From Alloscardovia omnicolens DSM 21503 (GTDB lineage Bacteria; Actinomycetota; Actinomycetes; Actinomycetales; Bifidobacteriaceae): a DNA stretch of 64,000 nucleotides. Shown in pieces: positions 50,847 through 57,119 of the stretch (the stretch's first letter is position 1; each line of letters opens with the position of its first letter). Where the stretch lies: positions 62,001 through 126,000 of the forward strand of contig NZ_ATVB01000001.1 in assembly GCF_000420505.1 (NCBI RefSeq), written 5' to 3'. The notes beneath the pieces are model-generated. The model did not search any database and was not told where the DNA came from. It saw only the letters and a program-made list of their open reading frames with translations. Position numbers and translations under genes: made by a program.

Positions 50847-51330
50847 TTTAAGAGCGATTAAAGTCCTCATACATGCGTGGATCGTGAAGTGCTAGTGCAA
50901 AGCATATTTTCACGAACCAACCAAGCACTCCGACCTGCCTCAGGAATCCAAAGAATAAAACACCCACTAAAATCACACGCACTGTATCAGCTTTGCTTTC
51001 TCTCCAGATGTAGTGAAGCAAAATCCCATCAGCATCACACTAGCTAGTAATCACTTCCCCATATCACGTAAGTCAACACCGTTAACTTGCTTTCTCATAT
51101 TTTCGTCTCACAATGTGTCAAATGTGCAATTTATCACAGTCGTTCACTGTCCTAAAGGTGAACGAACGAACAAACATATAGCCTTTCCCTATAATCAGCT
51201 ATTTTTCATGCTTCGAACCCGTTCGAAATCTAACACGAATAAAGATATATAACAGCACAAAACGAACATATCATATGTTCATTTCCAGCAATATCCCCCA
51301 TATTGGTTTTCTTTCCCAGAAAAACTAATT

Positions 51331-51370
51331 TCAATCGTTTGACGTCAATCGTTTGAATGCTTAGTATAAA
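51331..51370 (+). promoter_or_regulatory. Double operator and promoter of sucrose symporter 1
   Basis: Two direct copies of TCAATCGTTTGA (51331-51342, 51345-51356) separated by CG, each a TCAA..TTGA imperfect palindrome, precede a TATAAA at 51365-51370. The first copy also occurs at 54127, with the same CG spacing to a second half-site. Confidence 0.8.
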
Positions 51371-51435
51371 GTCTGTTTGGGCTTTTAGCACAAGTGTTCA
51401 CACTCGCTAAAATGAAACAGAAACGAAAGCGAAAA

Positions 51436-52767
51436 ATGAAACAACGTAGTTTACCCATGTGGAAAAATCCGTCCTACTTGCAAAATTCGGCCGGCATTTT
51501 CCTGTTCTTCTGCGCCTATGGAATTTGGTGGTCATTCTTCCGTATTTGGTTAAAGGAGAGTGTTCATCTCAGCGCAACCGAAGTTGGTCAGGTTTACTCT
51601 GCCAACTCATTAGTCGCCCTTATCCTTCTCCTCGTGTACGGTGCAGTTCAAGACCAGTTGGGTATTCGTCGTCATCTTATTATTGCAGTATCCACTATTG
51701 CAGCACTTATTGGACCGTTCGTCACCTTCATCTATGCGCCTATGTTGAGCACCCCTGGAGCTGTACGTTTTATTGGTATTCTTGTGGGCGCTGTAGTACT
51801 ATCCGCAGGCTTTATTGCTGGTAACTCGCTCGTTGAGGCAATCGGCGAAAAATGCTCACGTAAATTCAACTTTGTATTCGGCCAAACCCGCGCTTGGGGT
51901 TCATTAGGCTATGCTATCGTAGCTCTTTTTGCTGGCGTAGCTTCCACCATTCATCCATTACTTATTTTCTGGTTAGGATCATTCTTTGCAGTAGGCGTTT
52001 TGGCTATTTGCACCTTCTGGATTCCACAAGAACAGCGCGAGCTTATGCATCAGGAAGCAGGCTCAACATCGCAGGCTGCTACTACCCCATCTTTGCATGA
52101 TATTTTAGGCGTTCTGCGCATGCCAGAAGTATGGATTATTATGGCCTTCATGCTGTTCACGAACTCTTTCTATAACGTTTTCGACCAGCAAATGTTCCCT
52201 TCCTACTATGTTGATCAGTTCTCTGATTCTGTTGTGGGAACGGATACATATGCTGTTATTAACGGCGTTCAGGTGTTCTTAGAAGCAGCGTGCATGGCTT
52301 TGGCTCCAATCATTATGGAAAAAATTGGCGTGCGTAACTCTCTGCTTTTGGGCGGTTTCGTTATGTTTGCTCGCATTGGTCTTGTTCTTCTTATGGGAAA
52401 TAACATTTATCTGCTCTCTGCAGACCGCATGATGCACGCTTTGCAGATGTCATTTACAGTTTTGCCTGCTATGCGCTACTTCGCTTTACATTACAACACG
52501 AAGATGTCTGCTACGCTCTACTTGGTTGGTTTCCAGTTTGCTTCTCAGGGCGGTCAAATTATCTTCTCTACCCCGTTGGGTTACTTGCTCGATAGCACAG
52601 GCAGCACCACTACTTTTATGGTTATGACAGCTATTACCTTTATAGCGTTCGTTTACGGCTTGATTATTATTAAGAAAGATACTCAGGACGTTGATGGAGA
52701 CCCTCTGAAGAAACATATTAACAAGGGCATGACTGCTCAGATGGCTTCTTCTGAGCAGCTTGATTAA
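51436..52767 (+). CDS. MFS sucrose/oligosaccharide:H+ symporter 1
   Basis: This 443-residue protein has 12 transmembrane helices and the N-terminal WKNPSYLQNSAGIFLFFCAYGIWWSFFRIWL typical of the oligosaccharide:H+ symporter family (LacY/CscB-like). It ends TQDVDGDPLKKHINKGM. I chose 51436 (MKQRSLPMW) because it gives the same nine-residue lead as paralogue 2 (MEHSRFKVW); earlier in-frame starts exist. It lies upstream of its LacI regulator and is preceded by a TCAATCGTTTGA double operator. Its role as a sucrose transporter follows from the GH32 neighbour. Confidence 0.85.
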   Translation: MKQRSLPMWKNPSYLQNSAGIFLFFCAYGIWWSFFRIWLKESVHLSATEVGQVYSANSLVALILLLVYGAVQDQLGIRRHLIIAVSTIAALIGPFVTFIYAPMLSTPGAVRFIGILVGAVVLSAGFIAGNSLVEAIGEKCSRKFNFVFGQTRAWGSLGYAIVALFAGVASTIHPLLIFWLGSFFAVGVLAICTFWIPQEQRELMHQEAGSTSQAATTPSLHDILGVLRMPEVWIIMAFMLFTNSFYNVFDQQMFPSYYVDQFSDSVVGTDTYAVINGVQVFLEAACMALAPIIMEKIGVRNSLLLGGFVMFARIGLVLLMGNNIYLLSADRMMHALQMSFTVLPAMRYFALHYNTKMSATLYLVGFQFASQGGQIIFSTPLGYLLDSTGSTTTFMVMTAITFIAFVYGLIIIKKDTQDVDGDPLKKHINKGMTAQMASSEQLD

Positions 52768-52791
52768 CAGCTTGATTGGCTAAAAGTATTT

Positions 52792-52838
52792 GATTATGGG
52801 CGTTATTCCTCGATTCAGAAGGGATGACACCCATAATC
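52792..52838 (+). terminator. Hairpin between symporter 1 and the LacI gene
   Basis: Arms GATTATGGG/CCCATAATC, with internal pairing TTATTCC/GGGATGA. It lies 25 bp past symporter 1; no T-run, so it may serve as processing or partial terminator. Confidence 0.6.
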
Positions 52839-52986
52839 AATACAAGAAATTGTGCGGGACGCGACTCACCCATGTGAAGGTTTTCAGTGCCATGTATCAT
52901 GCAAAAGGATATTCAAGCAGACTCGTAACGAGTCTGACCATAAGCGCCAGTTCAACGAAGAGACAAGCCTTGTAAGGATAGATTCA

Positions 52987-54072
52987 ATGACGACAATGAA
53001 AGAGATTTCACAGATTGCAGGTGTTTCCATCTCTACCGTCTCGCTGGTTTTGAATAATCGTGATTCTGGACGTATCAAACCTGCTATCGCGGAAAAAATC
53101 CGAAAGATTGCCAAAGATCTCGGCTACTCTCCTAACCTGATGGCGCGCGGATTGCGCACCAGCCAAACGCATATTTTAGGCTTCCTCAGCGAAGAGGTAG
53201 CAACCACACCCTATGCAGGTCTTATGATTTTAGGCGCTCAAGATGCCGCCAGCAAGTATGGATATGTGATTATGACCGTGTCTACGGACGGAGCATCAAA
53301 CGAAGAAACAGAGATAACCGCTCTTCAACGTTATGGTGTAGATGGATTCTTTATTGCTAAAATGTCGAATCGCCGAGCAACCGTTCCAGATAGTCTACGC
53401 GATTATCATACGATTTTGGTTAATGCTACCGATGCTATGAGCGATTCAACTGCACAGAAAGATTCTTTTGCTCCTGCGCACCGCACTGGCATAGTTCCAG
53501 ATGAAGTTTCTATTGGTTACGATGCCACAAAGCATTTGATTGCCGCAGGTTGCACGCGCATTGCCTATATTGGTTGTGAAGAGCCTATGCTTGCTGAAGG
53601 TTTACGATTAGAAGGATATAAAAAGGCTCTGCATGAAGCAGGACTTCCTTTTGATAAGGATTTAGCTATTCAAGTGCATCACAACGACGACGCATTAAGT
53701 AAAGTACGCGCCTTGATGGATACGCACAAGCCTGACGGATTCTTCTGCTTTAATGATGCACGCGCTTGGTACGTGTATGACACTGCTGCACGTAAAGGCC
53801 TGACAATTGGTAAAGATATACAGGTGGTGGGTGTGGATAACCACCGCGTTTTAGCAGAAACTCTTTCTCCCCAACTTTCTACTGTGGAGCTTCCTCACTA
53901 CGAAATGGGATATTGGGCAGCTTGCAAGCTGATTAGTTTAATCGAAAATAAAGATCCGCGTAGTTTTGAGCTACCTGAGACCACTGCTCCCCTGCCAGCT
54001 TTATCAAGTAATGGAGATGTAACTATTCACTGCACTCTAGTAGAGAAAAACTCAGTATACACACAGGAATAA
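52987..54072 (+). CDS. LacI-family sucrose-regulon regulator
   Basis: This 361-residue regulator has MTTMKEISQIAGVSISTVSLVLNNRDSGRIKPAIAEKIRKIAKDLGYSPNLMARGL, a LacI DNA-binding domain, and a sugar-binding domain ending LAETLSPQLSTVELPHYEMGYWAACKLISL. The ATG at 52987 has AAGGAT 9 nt upstream. It sits between the two symporters and presumably binds the TCAATCGTTTGA operators before each. No such operator precedes its own gene, so it may not autoregulate. Confidence 0.9.
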   Translation: MTTMKEISQIAGVSISTVSLVLNNRDSGRIKPAIAEKIRKIAKDLGYSPNLMARGLRTSQTHILGFLSEEVATTPYAGLMILGAQDAASKYGYVIMTVSTDGASNEETEITALQRYGVDGFFIAKMSNRRATVPDSLRDYHTILVNATDAMSDSTAQKDSFAPAHRTGIVPDEVSIGYDATKHLIAAGCTRIAYIGCEEPMLAEGLRLEGYKKALHEAGLPFDKDLAIQVHHNDDALSKVRALMDTHKPDGFFCFNDARAWYVYDTAARKGLTIGKDIQVVGVDNHRVLAETLSPQLSTVELPHYEMGYWAACKLISLIENKDPRSFELPETTAPLPALSSNGDVTIHCTLVEKNSVYTQE

Positions 54073-54125
54073 CAGTCCATTTTTTGAAATACAAGAAAAT
54101 TTCCGTTCATTATTCGGAATACTTT

Positions 54126-54161
54126 GTCAATCGTTTGACGTCAAACGATTGACGCTATAAT
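54126..54161 (+). promoter_or_regulatory. Perfect palindromic operator and -10 of symporter 2
   Basis: GTCAATCGTTTGAC (54126-54139) is followed directly by its exact reverse complement (54140-54153), a 28-bp perfect palindrome. TATAAT follows at 54156-54161, so the operator occupies the -35 region. Each half contains a TCAA..TTGA site, matching the operators at 51331. Confidence 0.9.
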
Positions 54162-54226
54162 ATATAGGATTGTTAGCTCATTGAACAAAGATGATCGTTC
54201 GCTAATAAAACAGAAATGAGAGTTAC

Positions 54227-55528
54227 ATGGAACACAGTCGTTTTAAGGTATGGAATAATCCTTCCTATTTACAAAGTTCTTTTGGCATTTTTATGTTCTT
54301 CTGCTCATGGGGCATCTGGTGGTCATTCTTCCAGCGTTGGCTCAATACCATTGGACTCAATGGGGCTGAAGTTGGTCAAATCTATTCCATCAATTCTTTA
54401 GCGACACTAATTATTATGTTTGCTTACGGCGCTATTCAAGACCAGTTAGGTATTAAGCGCCATCTTGCAATTGCAATTTCTGCTATTGCAGCTTTAGTAG
54501 GTCCATTCGTTCACTTCATCTACGCTCCTATGATTCAAGCTGGCGGATCAGTTCGCTTCATTGGCGCTCTGTTGGGATCTGTTGTCTTATCTGCGGGCTT
54601 TATGGCTGGTTGCTCTCTTATTGAAGCACTAACCGAACGTTACTCCCGTAAGTTTGATTTCGAATTTGGACAGTCCCGCGCATGGGGTTCATTCGGTTAC
54701 GCTATTGTTGCTTTAGTAGCAGGTCACATCTTTAACATCAATCCAATGATTAACTTCTGGGTTGGTTCTGTATTCGGTCTGGCAATGCTTGCTATTTACG
54801 CTTTCTGGGTTCCATCTCAGCAGAAAGAAGCGCTATCTGGCAATCAAGATAATGAAGCAGCTCCAAGCAATCCTTCTATAAAAGATATGCTTTCCGTCTT
54901 AACTATGCCAACCTTGTGGTTGCTCATCGTCTTTATGCTGCTGACTAACACGTTCTATACGGTTTTCGATCAGCAGATGTTCCCAACCTACTACACCAAC
55001 CTGTTCCCAACCGAAGAAATCGGTAATAACACCTACTCCACACTCAACGGTATTCAGGTATTCATGGAATCCGCCATGATGGGTGTTGTGCCAATTATTA
55101 TGCGCAAAATTGGCGTGCGTAATGCACTCCTGTGCGGCGCTTTCATTATGTTTGCTCGTATCGGTTTGTGCGGCATCTTCCACGACCCTATTTCTATCTC
55201 TATCGTCAAGATGTTCCACTCTATTGAAGTGCCTCTGTTTGTGTTGCCAACCTTCCGCTACTTCACCTTGCACTTCGATACGAAGCTGTCTGCAACTCTC
55301 TACATGGTTGGTTTCCAGGTGGCTTCTCAAGTTGGTCAGGTTATTTTCTCCACGCCATTGGGCGCATTACACGATGCTCTGGGCGACCGCACAACCTTCT
55401 TAACAATCTCTGCCATCGTTTTGGCTGCACTCATTTATGGTTTCTTCATCTTGAAGAAGGATGATCAAGAGGTTGGCGGAGATCCGTTCTACACCGATAA
55501 GCAGCTCAAAGCTATGCAGACCGCATAA
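54227..55528 (+). CDS. MFS sucrose/oligosaccharide:H+ symporter 2
   Basis: This 433-residue paralogue of the gene at 51436 shares WNNPSYLQSSFGIFMFFCSWGIWWSF, FDQQMFPTYYTNLFPTEEIG and the helix-rich frame of 12 segments, and ends EVGGDPFYTDKQLKAM. It starts with the operator-promoter 73 bp upstream. It is directly followed by the GH32 sucrase (34 bp), so sucrose uptake and cleavage are probably co-transcribed from this promoter. Confidence 0.88.
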   Translation: MEHSRFKVWNNPSYLQSSFGIFMFFCSWGIWWSFFQRWLNTIGLNGAEVGQIYSINSLATLIIMFAYGAIQDQLGIKRHLAIAISAIAALVGPFVHFIYAPMIQAGGSVRFIGALLGSVVLSAGFMAGCSLIEALTERYSRKFDFEFGQSRAWGSFGYAIVALVAGHIFNINPMINFWVGSVFGLAMLAIYAFWVPSQQKEALSGNQDNEAAPSNPSIKDMLSVLTMPTLWLLIVFMLLTNTFYTVFDQQMFPTYYTNLFPTEEIGNNTYSTLNGIQVFMESAMMGVVPIIMRKIGVRNALLCGAFIMFARIGLCGIFHDPISISIVKMFHSIEVPLFVLPTFRYFTLHFDTKLSATLYMVGFQVASQVGQVIFSTPLGALHDALGDRTTFLTISAIVLAALIYGFFILKKDDQEVGGDPFYTDKQLKAMQTA

Positions 55529-55562: not shown

Positions 55563-57119
55563 ATGACAAACTTTATTCCTGACGAGCCAGTTATTCATAC
55601 TACTGCGCAGCATGACGAAGAACTAGCACGCGCTGAACAAGCAGTTGCTCAACTTGCCGAAAGCCGTAATAACCGCTGGTATCCTCGTTTCCATATCGCT
55701 TCTAACGGCGGTTGGATTAACGATCCTAATGGTTTGTGCTTCTATAAGGGTCGCTGGCATGTGTTCTATCAGCTTCACCCTTATGGCACGCAGTGGGGTC
55801 CAATGCACTGGGGCCATGTTTCTTCTGCTGATATGCTCACCTGGCAGCGCGAACCTATTGCTTTCGCCCCAAGTCTTGAAGAAGAAAAAGACGGCGTTTT
55901 CTCCGGCTCTGCAGTGATTGGCGATGATGGAGAAATTAACTTCTACTACACCGGACATCGTTGGGCAAATGGAGCAGATAATACGGGTGGCGATTGGCAG
56001 GTGCAGATGCTTGCACAGCCAAATGACGATGGATTAAAAAGCTTTACAAAGCGCGGCATGATTATTGACTGCCCAACTGATCAAGTAGACCACCATTACC
56101 GCGATCCTAAGGTATGGAAAACAGGAGATACCTGGTACATGACCTTTGGCGTCTCCTCGGCAGACAAACGTGGTCAAATGTGGCTCTTCACCTCTGATGA
56201 TATGGTTCATTGGACCTATGATCGCGTTCTATTCGAACATCCTGATAAGAACGTCTTTATGCTCGAATGCCCTGACTTCTTCCCTCTTATCGATAAAGAC
56301 GGTAACGAGAAGTGGGTTATTGGCTTTTCTGCTATGGGCGCTGAAGCAAACGGTTATATGAACCGCAACGTAAATAATGCTGGTTATATGATTGGAACAT
56401 GGAAGCCAGGCGAATCCTTTAAGCCTGAAACTGAGTTCCGTTTGTGGGATTGGGGTCACAATTATTACGCTCCACAATCTTTCAATGACGGTTCACGTCA
56501 GCTTATGTACGGTTGGATGAGTCCATTCGAACAGCCTATTCCCATGCAGGCTGACGGCTGGTGCGGTAATTTAACTCTTCCTCGTGAGATTACCTTGGGT
56601 GCTGATGGAGATGTGCATACTGCTCCTGCCGCAGAAATGCTGGGATTACGTAGCGCTACTCAGGATTGGGGTTCAGTAAGCGTTTCTCACAATTCTGTGC
56701 TTCGCCTTGAGCGTGACGCTCAGTGTGTGGAACTTGAGCTAAGCATTGATTTGACTTCTACTTCTGCAGAACGTACCGGTGTGCGCGTACACGCTACAGA
56801 AGACGGCTCCTTCACTTATATTGCGTATGATCAGCAGACCAAGCGCGTCGTTATTGACCGTCAGACTGCTTATGCAGGAGACCGCGGATACCGCGCAGCA
56901 CCTGTTAGCGATGCTGAAGTGTCAACCGGTCGTTTAGATTTGCGCATTTTCGTTGATCGCGGTTGCGTAGAAGTTTATGTCAATGGCGGTAAACAGGTTC
57001 TGAGCTCATACAGTTATGCTGGCGAGGGTGAGCGTGCAGTTGAATTGGTCAGCGAATCAGGGTCTACATCCTATTCCTCTGTTCGAGTACATCAGCTCAA
57101 GTCGATTGGCTTAGAGTAG
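55563..57119 (+). CDS. GH32 beta-fructofuranosidase (sucrase)
   Basis: This 518-residue cytoplasmic GH32 enzyme cleaves sucrose and possibly short fructans. The five-bladed propeller begins GGWINDPNGLCFYKGRWHVFYQ (nucleophile Asp54); RDPKVW (Asp181) and the acid/base Glu235 in FMLECPDFFPL follow; a C-terminal beta-sandwich contains RLDLRIFVDRGCVEVYVNGG. There is no signal peptide, so sucrose is taken up intact. The ATG at 55563 has GAAAG upstream. It ends the sucrose operon and is followed by a terminator. Confidence 0.93.
   Translation: MTNFIPDEPVIHTTAQHDEELARAEQAVAQLAESRNNRWYPRFHIASNGGWINDPNGLCFYKGRWHVFYQLHPYGTQWGPMHWGHVSSADMLTWQREPIAFAPSLEEEKDGVFSGSAVIGDDGEINFYYTGHRWANGADNTGGDWQVQMLAQPNDDGLKSFTKRGMIIDCPTDQVDHHYRDPKVWKTGDTWYMTFGVSSADKRGQMWLFTSDDMVHWTYDRVLFEHPDKNVFMLECPDFFPLIDKDGNEKWVIGFSAMGAEANGYMNRNVNNAGYMIGTWKPGESFKPETEFRLWDWGHNYYAPQSFNDGSRQLMYGWMSPFEQPIPMQADGWCGNLTLPREITLGADGDVHTAPAAEMLGLRSATQDWGSVSVSHNSVLRLERDAQCVELELSIDLTSTSAERTGVRVHATEDGSFTYIAYDQQTKRVVIDRQTAYAGDRGYRAAPVSDAEVSTGRLDLRIFVDRGCVEVYVNGGKQVLSSYSYAGEGERAVELVSESGSTSYSSVRVHQLKSIGLE

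Follow-up and report, generated by a model that had tools for sequence, protein, structure and literature searches.

Each of the two symporter promoters in the window (the whole stretch of 64,000 nucleotides analysed here) carries two whole predicted operators of the LacI family, placed end to end with their centres 14 bp apart. Taking the evidence from the window and its relatives together, we consider it probable that these pairs are the operators of the CscR-like repressor encoded at 52987, and that two repressor dimers bind them side by side and so block the promoter. The genes lie on the + strand in the order symporter 1, regulator, symporter 2 and GH32 hydrolase. The features, with the basis of each assignment, are:

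51330-51343, + strand: predicted operator 1 of the symporter-1 promoter (TTCAATCGTTTGAC); letters
51339-51344, + strand: predicted -35 box TTGACG of the symporter-1 promoter; promoter scan
51344-51357, + strand: predicted operator 2 of the symporter-1 promoter (GTCAATCGTTTGAA); letters
51362-51367, + strand: predicted -10 box TAGTAT of the symporter-1 promoter, 17 bp from the -35 box; promoter scan
51436-52767, + strand: symporter 1, LacY_symp family, second paralogue; family match
52987-54072, + strand: LacI-family regulator (CscR-like), 361 aa; family match and relatives
54126-54139, + strand: predicted operator 1 of the symporter-2 promoter (GTCAATCGTTTGAC); letters and profile of relatives
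54135-54140, + strand: predicted -35 box TTGACG of the symporter-2 promoter, formed by the right arm of operator 1 together with the first base of operator 2; promoter scan
54140-54153, + strand: predicted operator 2 of the symporter-2 promoter (GTCAAACGATTGAC), directly adjoining operator 1; letters and profile of relatives
54158-54163, + strand: predicted -10 box TAATAT of the symporter-2 promoter, 17 bp from the -35 box; promoter scan
54227-55528, + strand: symporter 2 (CscB-like), LacY_symp family; family match
55563-57119, + strand: GH32 sucrose hydrolase-like gene (CscA-like), 34 bp behind symporter 2; family match

The preliminary description had reported a perfect 28-bp palindrome at 54126-54153 and two direct copies of TCAATCGTTTGA at 51331-51356, and both were confirmed. 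The 14-nt arms of the palindrome (54126-54139 and 54140-54153) are 100% complementary with 0 nt between them, an arrangement expected 0.0002 times per 64 kb by a simple even-base estimate, and the direct copies are identical 12-mers at 51331-51342 and 51345-51356, 14 nt from start to start. The repeated units had been described as half-sites, and here our reading differs. Read on the opposite strand, TCAATCGTTTGA becomes TCAAACGATTGA; the 12-mer is palindromic around a central CG apart from a single mismatched pair (TCAAT CG TTTGA). LacI-family operators are mostly even palindromes with a central CG, according to section 9 of PMC4052901, and both TCAATCGTTTGA and TCAAACGATTGA agree with this LacI/GalR rule with one mismatched pair each. 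Moreover, the 14-mer GTCAAACGATTGAC lies inside the Lactiplantibacillus plantarum SacR1 site tested by gel shift, and the SacR/SacR1 operator likewise belongs to sucrose/FOS genes (PMC7419226, PMC2329647). The near-palindromic 12-mer with its central CG, together with the occurrence of GTCAAACGATTGAC in the SacR1 site, argues that TCAAWCGWTTGA is a complete predicted LacI-family operator in the form of a near-perfect palindrome, that two such operators are present per promoter, and that the half-site reading is wrong. In the SacR1 promoter, mutation of one of two sites weakened binding and mutation of both abolished it (PMC7419226), and SacR operators share with those of the window a G at -7 and a C at +7, both conserved (PMC2329647); unlike the pairs of the window, the two SacR1 sites are nowhere said to abut in the accessible text of these two papers.

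Single copies of the 12-mer are not rare in the window. With at most one mismatch there are 6 matches against 2.9 expected, and 6 or more were obtained in 7 of 100 shuffles. All four exact matches, by contrast, sit inside the two pairs, and the exact 12-mer TCAANCGNTTGA occurs at 7 places in the whole genome, 4 of which are those of the window pairs. For neither pair do the preceding 100 bp contain a third operator within 2 mismatches. Elsewhere in the genome, single sites at C24:13355, C1:61798 and C4:61921 are unpaired and are treated here as probable chance occurrences; the first of these, an exact operator (L001:5356-5367), lies ~130 bp before a short-chain dehydrogenase-like gene.

The product of the gene at 52987 had been described as a LacI-family regulator, in agreement with what we find: a LacI HTH N-terminal domain and a periplasmic-binding-protein-like core, with Pfam matches to PF00356 (49.9 bits) and PF13377 (91.6 bits), both above cut-offs. 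In the best 80 of the 108 family loci that passed, a cscB-like permease of the symporter-2 type is present in 56 and a GH32 gene in 74. By this gene content, and set against CscR by its descriptions, the regulator group fits the CscR of bifidobacteria. As far as the main texts of PMC4746261 and PMC9599254 describe it, genes for the uptake and hydrolysis of sucrose in the Bifidobacterium CscR regulon likewise have a local LacI-family regulator, with cscA and cscB as its predicted targets; the window differs in having a second symporter gene preceded by the same type of operator. Neither main text contains the word "tandem", and the site tables are in supplements that may list paired sites. We regard the window locus as a sucrose-type regulon of the ordinary sort whose double operator is unusually fixed. 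Symporter 1 is ~56% identical to symporter 2 and stands beside the regulator in the window and also in genome G003 (L116; 82% identical). Behind symporter 1, at 52792-52838, lie the inverted 9-mers GATTATGGG and CCCATAATC, perhaps a terminator before the regulator; they are missing from the list of the consensus scan.

The pair recurs at the same place in relatives. Gaps leading from the regulator to the next permease or GH32 gene contain a 14-bp pair (at most 2 mismatches per site, 14 bp) in 46 of 68 cases, compared to 0 in each of 50 shuffles. A 14-bp pair is also present in 4 of 5 gaps leading from a GH32 gene to a permease, with none in shuffles, and in 0 of 56 gaps of relatives leading from a permease to a GH32 gene. 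In A. macacae, the permease and hydrolase lie ~100 kb from the regulator, with the pair in front of them. That the pair travels with the permease and hydrolase in A. macacae, and otherwise stands behind the regulator gene, links it to the regulator.

A two-site search of 189 Bifidobacteriaceae genomes was carried out with the spacing left free (gap of 0-30 bases). Matches were obtained in 82 genomes, with 84 places at 14 bp and 4 further places at 32, 33, 35 and 37 bp, each of these four overlapping a 14-bp pair and reflecting an extra upstream operator of the promoter that has this pair. Between 12 and 31 bp, the sole spacing found in the 189 genomes was 14 bp, and the reversed pattern used as a control returned 0 matches in the same genomes. 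The strict pair is present in all 5 genomes of the genus Alloscardovia and missing from 107 of the 189 family genomes, with 12 of the 16 genera having none; with one mismatch allowed, none of a sample of 395 other genomes of the phylum has it. In the DNA around the loci, a pair with at most 3 mismatches was found for 61 of 82 regulators, while the reversed sequences of 80 loci scored 6 mismatches at best. The 21 regulators lacking a pair within 3 mismatches comprise 6 with the recognition helix VTA, 8 with VST or IST, and 7 others. An unchanged VST or IST helix and no pair are found at L004, L010, L019, L049, L052, L057, L062 and L067; for L004 the pair was found elsewhere in its genome. The sites, the spacing common to relatives, the position on a predicted promoter and the association with cscR-like genes can be read directly from the genomes compared, and they point to the spacing, not the orientation, as the conserved property. 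The preliminary description had assigned the sites to the regulator at 52987, and the pairs stand as its predicted operators on this comparative evidence, i.e. the pairs in regulator gaps, the family search and the helix-operator link described below.

The pair also has a consistent place on the predicted promoter. A promoter scan of 51200-54300 returned 8 promoter-like matches versus 7.1 in shuffles, i.e. no excess. A profile was built from 52 of 74 promoter regions (51 loci or the window, both window pairs included; at most 4 mismatches; L040 left out; 22 dropped). It reads CG-TCAATCGWTTGA-CG-TMAAWCGWTTGA-CG, with a -10 box at a constant distance behind it. Since these pairs were chosen by motif, part of the conservation within the 12-mers is inherent in the choice, whereas selection did not bear on the flanking CG, the junction or the -10 box. 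The junction is TTGACG in 47 of the 52 pairs, and the -10 box fits TANNNT (T-A-N-N-N-T) in 43 and is CATAAT in 8 more. This fits a predicted -35 box formed by the TTGACG junction, with operator 2 filling the 17-bp spacer. The two operators are not equally symmetric: in the inner arm of operator 2, A replaces C at the second base in 34 of 52 pairs versus 0 of 22 third operators (described below; the rows are related, and a p-value from this comparison is overstated), a relaxed arm that equal symmetric sites match poorly.

In the mechanism that we infer, binding, repression, induction and simultaneous occupancy would be combined as follows. Each symporter promoter would present two complete 14-bp operators (consensus GTCAAWCGWTTGAC) to the CscR-like repressor encoded at 52987, the right arm of operator 1 lying over the -35 box and operator 2 taking up the 17-bp spacer in the direction of the -10 box. 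As long as inducer, presumably sucrose or a related sugar, is absent, repressor dimers on the operators would exclude RNA polymerase; inducer would free the operators, and the symporters and hydrolase would be made. Both operators would be held at once by two dimers on faces of the DNA ~120 degrees apart with no mutual touch, and any cooperation between the dimers would run through the DNA.

We assessed whether 14 bp leaves room for such an arrangement by using a toy geometry with straight DNA and assumed sizes. In this model, the heads collide at spacings of 12 bp or less and are free of collision at 13 bp or more; with 14 bp between centres, the dimers are 120 degrees apart with their cores far from each other, and at 21-22 bp the cores are near or touching. 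Two dimers with base contacts extending +/-7 bp from the operator centre would just abut at 14 bp. This crude straight-DNA model suggests that there is room for two dimers at 14 bp on one promoter. On the other hand, the operators could be alternatives, with one dimer binding at a time in either register, doubling raising occupancy and either position blocking the promoter. The relaxed inner arm of operator 2 is in line with this, and according to section 9 of PMC4052901, dimers ~13 bp apart are difficult to square with structures and cannot interact. We regard the use of one dimer at a time as rather unlikely: the contact zones merely abut and the model heads are free of clashes from 13 bp upward, and doubling alone would tolerate other spacings, of which the 12-31 bp range yielded none but 14 bp. 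Simultaneous binding of two dimers is thus our preferred reading. As a more tentative proposal, to which we give somewhat under an even chance as a whole, 14 bp would be the closest packing of LacI-family dimers without sharing of contacted bases, and bifidobacterial CscR would use a fixed two-dimer unit fused to the -35 box and spacer and cooperating only via DNA distortion, one clade having a 21-22-bp same-face arrangement and a changed helix.

That clade is defined by six regulator orthologues in which the recognition helix is VTA instead of VST/IST. None of the six has the 14-bp pair, their best scores being 7-8 mismatches. Five of the six loci have two GAAWCGWTT-type sites at 21-22 bp, and the sixth (L069) has one good and one poor site. 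In the clade with 22-bp spacing, operator 2 is in the same spacer position and TTGACG is kept, with the partner operator centred 22 bp off (21 bp in B. bombi), and GAAWCGWTTTACA-NN-TTGACGTRAAWCGWTTC was found in 13 of the 189 family genomes (at most 3 mismatches allowed, 0 or 1 found). The VTA clade includes B. bohemicum, B. commune and B. bombi and forms one group in the tree (five rows, support 100/99), from which L007 and L064 (<300 aa) were excluded. This holds whatever the labels of the 18 rows marked "other", of which at least L038, L042, L047 and L073 do have the pair, so that counts of changes in the 14-bp state are too high. The group lies among 14-bp-pair rows, next to Alloscardovia. 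The direction of change is likely to have been from 14 to 22 bp, graded no higher than likely because the surrounding branches are weakly supported. Operator type thus appears to change together with the recognition helix, a link that rests mainly on the VTA clade since the 15 other pairless relatives have other or unchanged helices.

The same clade, which keeps TTGACG with no operator 1 at 14 bp, could be taken to mean that operator 2 alone is used and that the TTGAC of operator 1 is kept merely as a -35 box, as could L049, L052 and L072, where a perfect operator 2 is accompanied by a poor operator 1 (5, 7 and 6 mismatches, respectively). This is very unlikely: the left arm and centre of operator 1, which lie outside the -35 box, hold 1.0-2.0 bits per base versus ~0.1 in the flank (an upper bound, as the rows are motif-chosen), and both sites were present at 84 places in the spacing-free search. 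Slimmer still is the chance that another LacI-family regulator of the same genome binds the pair; the genome does contain 15 matches to the regulator, itself included, but its nearest paralogue, with 40-44% identity, carries another recognition helix (STATVSM), and in one clade a change of helix goes with a change of operator type.

The preliminary description had proposed the direct and inverted forms as a comparison of operator geometry. The two forms differ solely in which of two A/T positions bears the mismatch. Among the 52 aligned pairs, 12 are direct, 11 are inverted and 29 are unoriented, i.e. contain a perfectly symmetric operator. G003, the nearest relative found (regulator 83% identical), has the inverted form at its symporter-1 promoter, whereas the orthologous promoter of the window has the direct form; its symporter-2 pair differs in make-up from that of the window, with one mismatch. 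On the orientation counts and this sister genome we reject the geometric comparison, and the direct or inverted state is most likely drift at two interchangeable A/T positions. Although the window sequences do show the difference, the view that they are half-site pairs in two geometries, with two dimers or a looped tetramer on the direct one, is barely credible, given near-palindromic 12-mers with a central CG, the counts above and the inverted form at symporter 1 of G003. For the direct form, two dimers side by side are possible, and that part of the proposal stands; the looped tetramer finds no support, alignments of the regulator with LacI chains stopping at query residue 322-323 of 361. 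The C-terminal helix through which LacI tetramerizes lies beyond this point. A "direct versus inverted" arrangement of a near-palindrome may thus be a mere two-base accident, which serves as a warning.

IdeR and DtxR belong to a protein family unrelated to LacI. By analogy only, they provide a model, as described in PMC8464063, in which two dimers occupy opposite DNA faces and cooperate through the DNA with no protein contact. Within the LacI family, GntR at E. coli gntK (PMC4052901, section 9) similarly has a pair of near-palindromic operators that overlap or abut within a single promoter; by our reading of the sequence, these are 13 bp apart start to start, compared to the 14 bp that the window shares with many species and the 21-22 bp of one clade. 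According to PMC4052901, Ravcheev and co-workers found spacing peaks at 13, 22 and 32 bp in 2014, with double operators ~13 bp apart in front of 110 operons, and regarded the 13-bp class as hard to explain; the 14 bp of the window may or may not count in that "about 13" peak. In one E. coli strain, the csc genes have two GTTAACGTTAAC sites ~63 bp apart and no 14-bp pair. Our literature search, which covered freely accessible main texts and listings, found no description of the bifidobacterial 14-bp pair, and we make no claim that it is absent from print. The double operator belongs to an ordinary kind, and what is new and useful about it is a natural comparison of 14- and 22-bp promoters of one repressor: the 14-bp set and the 21-22-bp clade share the same promoter frame, and occupancy and cooperativity could be compared between natural variants. 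The 14-bp promoters also bear on how LacI-family dimers use operators ~13 bp apart, which in 2014 was called hard to reconcile with structures (PMC4052901).

Several minor observations concern the surroundings of the pair. A plasmid search gave 80 records, none of which covers 80% of the query, the 20 matches listed being weak and within single genes. Autoregulation via the same pair was set aside: a pair is present in 1 of 80 regulator upstream regions (400 nt; no shuffles), that of a distant homologue, L083. In 22 loci (L033, L045, L058 and 19 further), the pair is preceded, at a distance of 32-55 bp, by a third single operator (at most 1 mismatch). Helical phasing of this operator is suggestive and was also set aside, with a Rayleigh p of 2e-5 over the 22 loci, kinship ignored, and of 0.005 over 9 groups chosen by eye. 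Finally, in genome G056, a second 14-bp pair (L119:2914-2939) lies before an apparently shortened copy of the regulator, which matches only residues 1-102 and 237-356.
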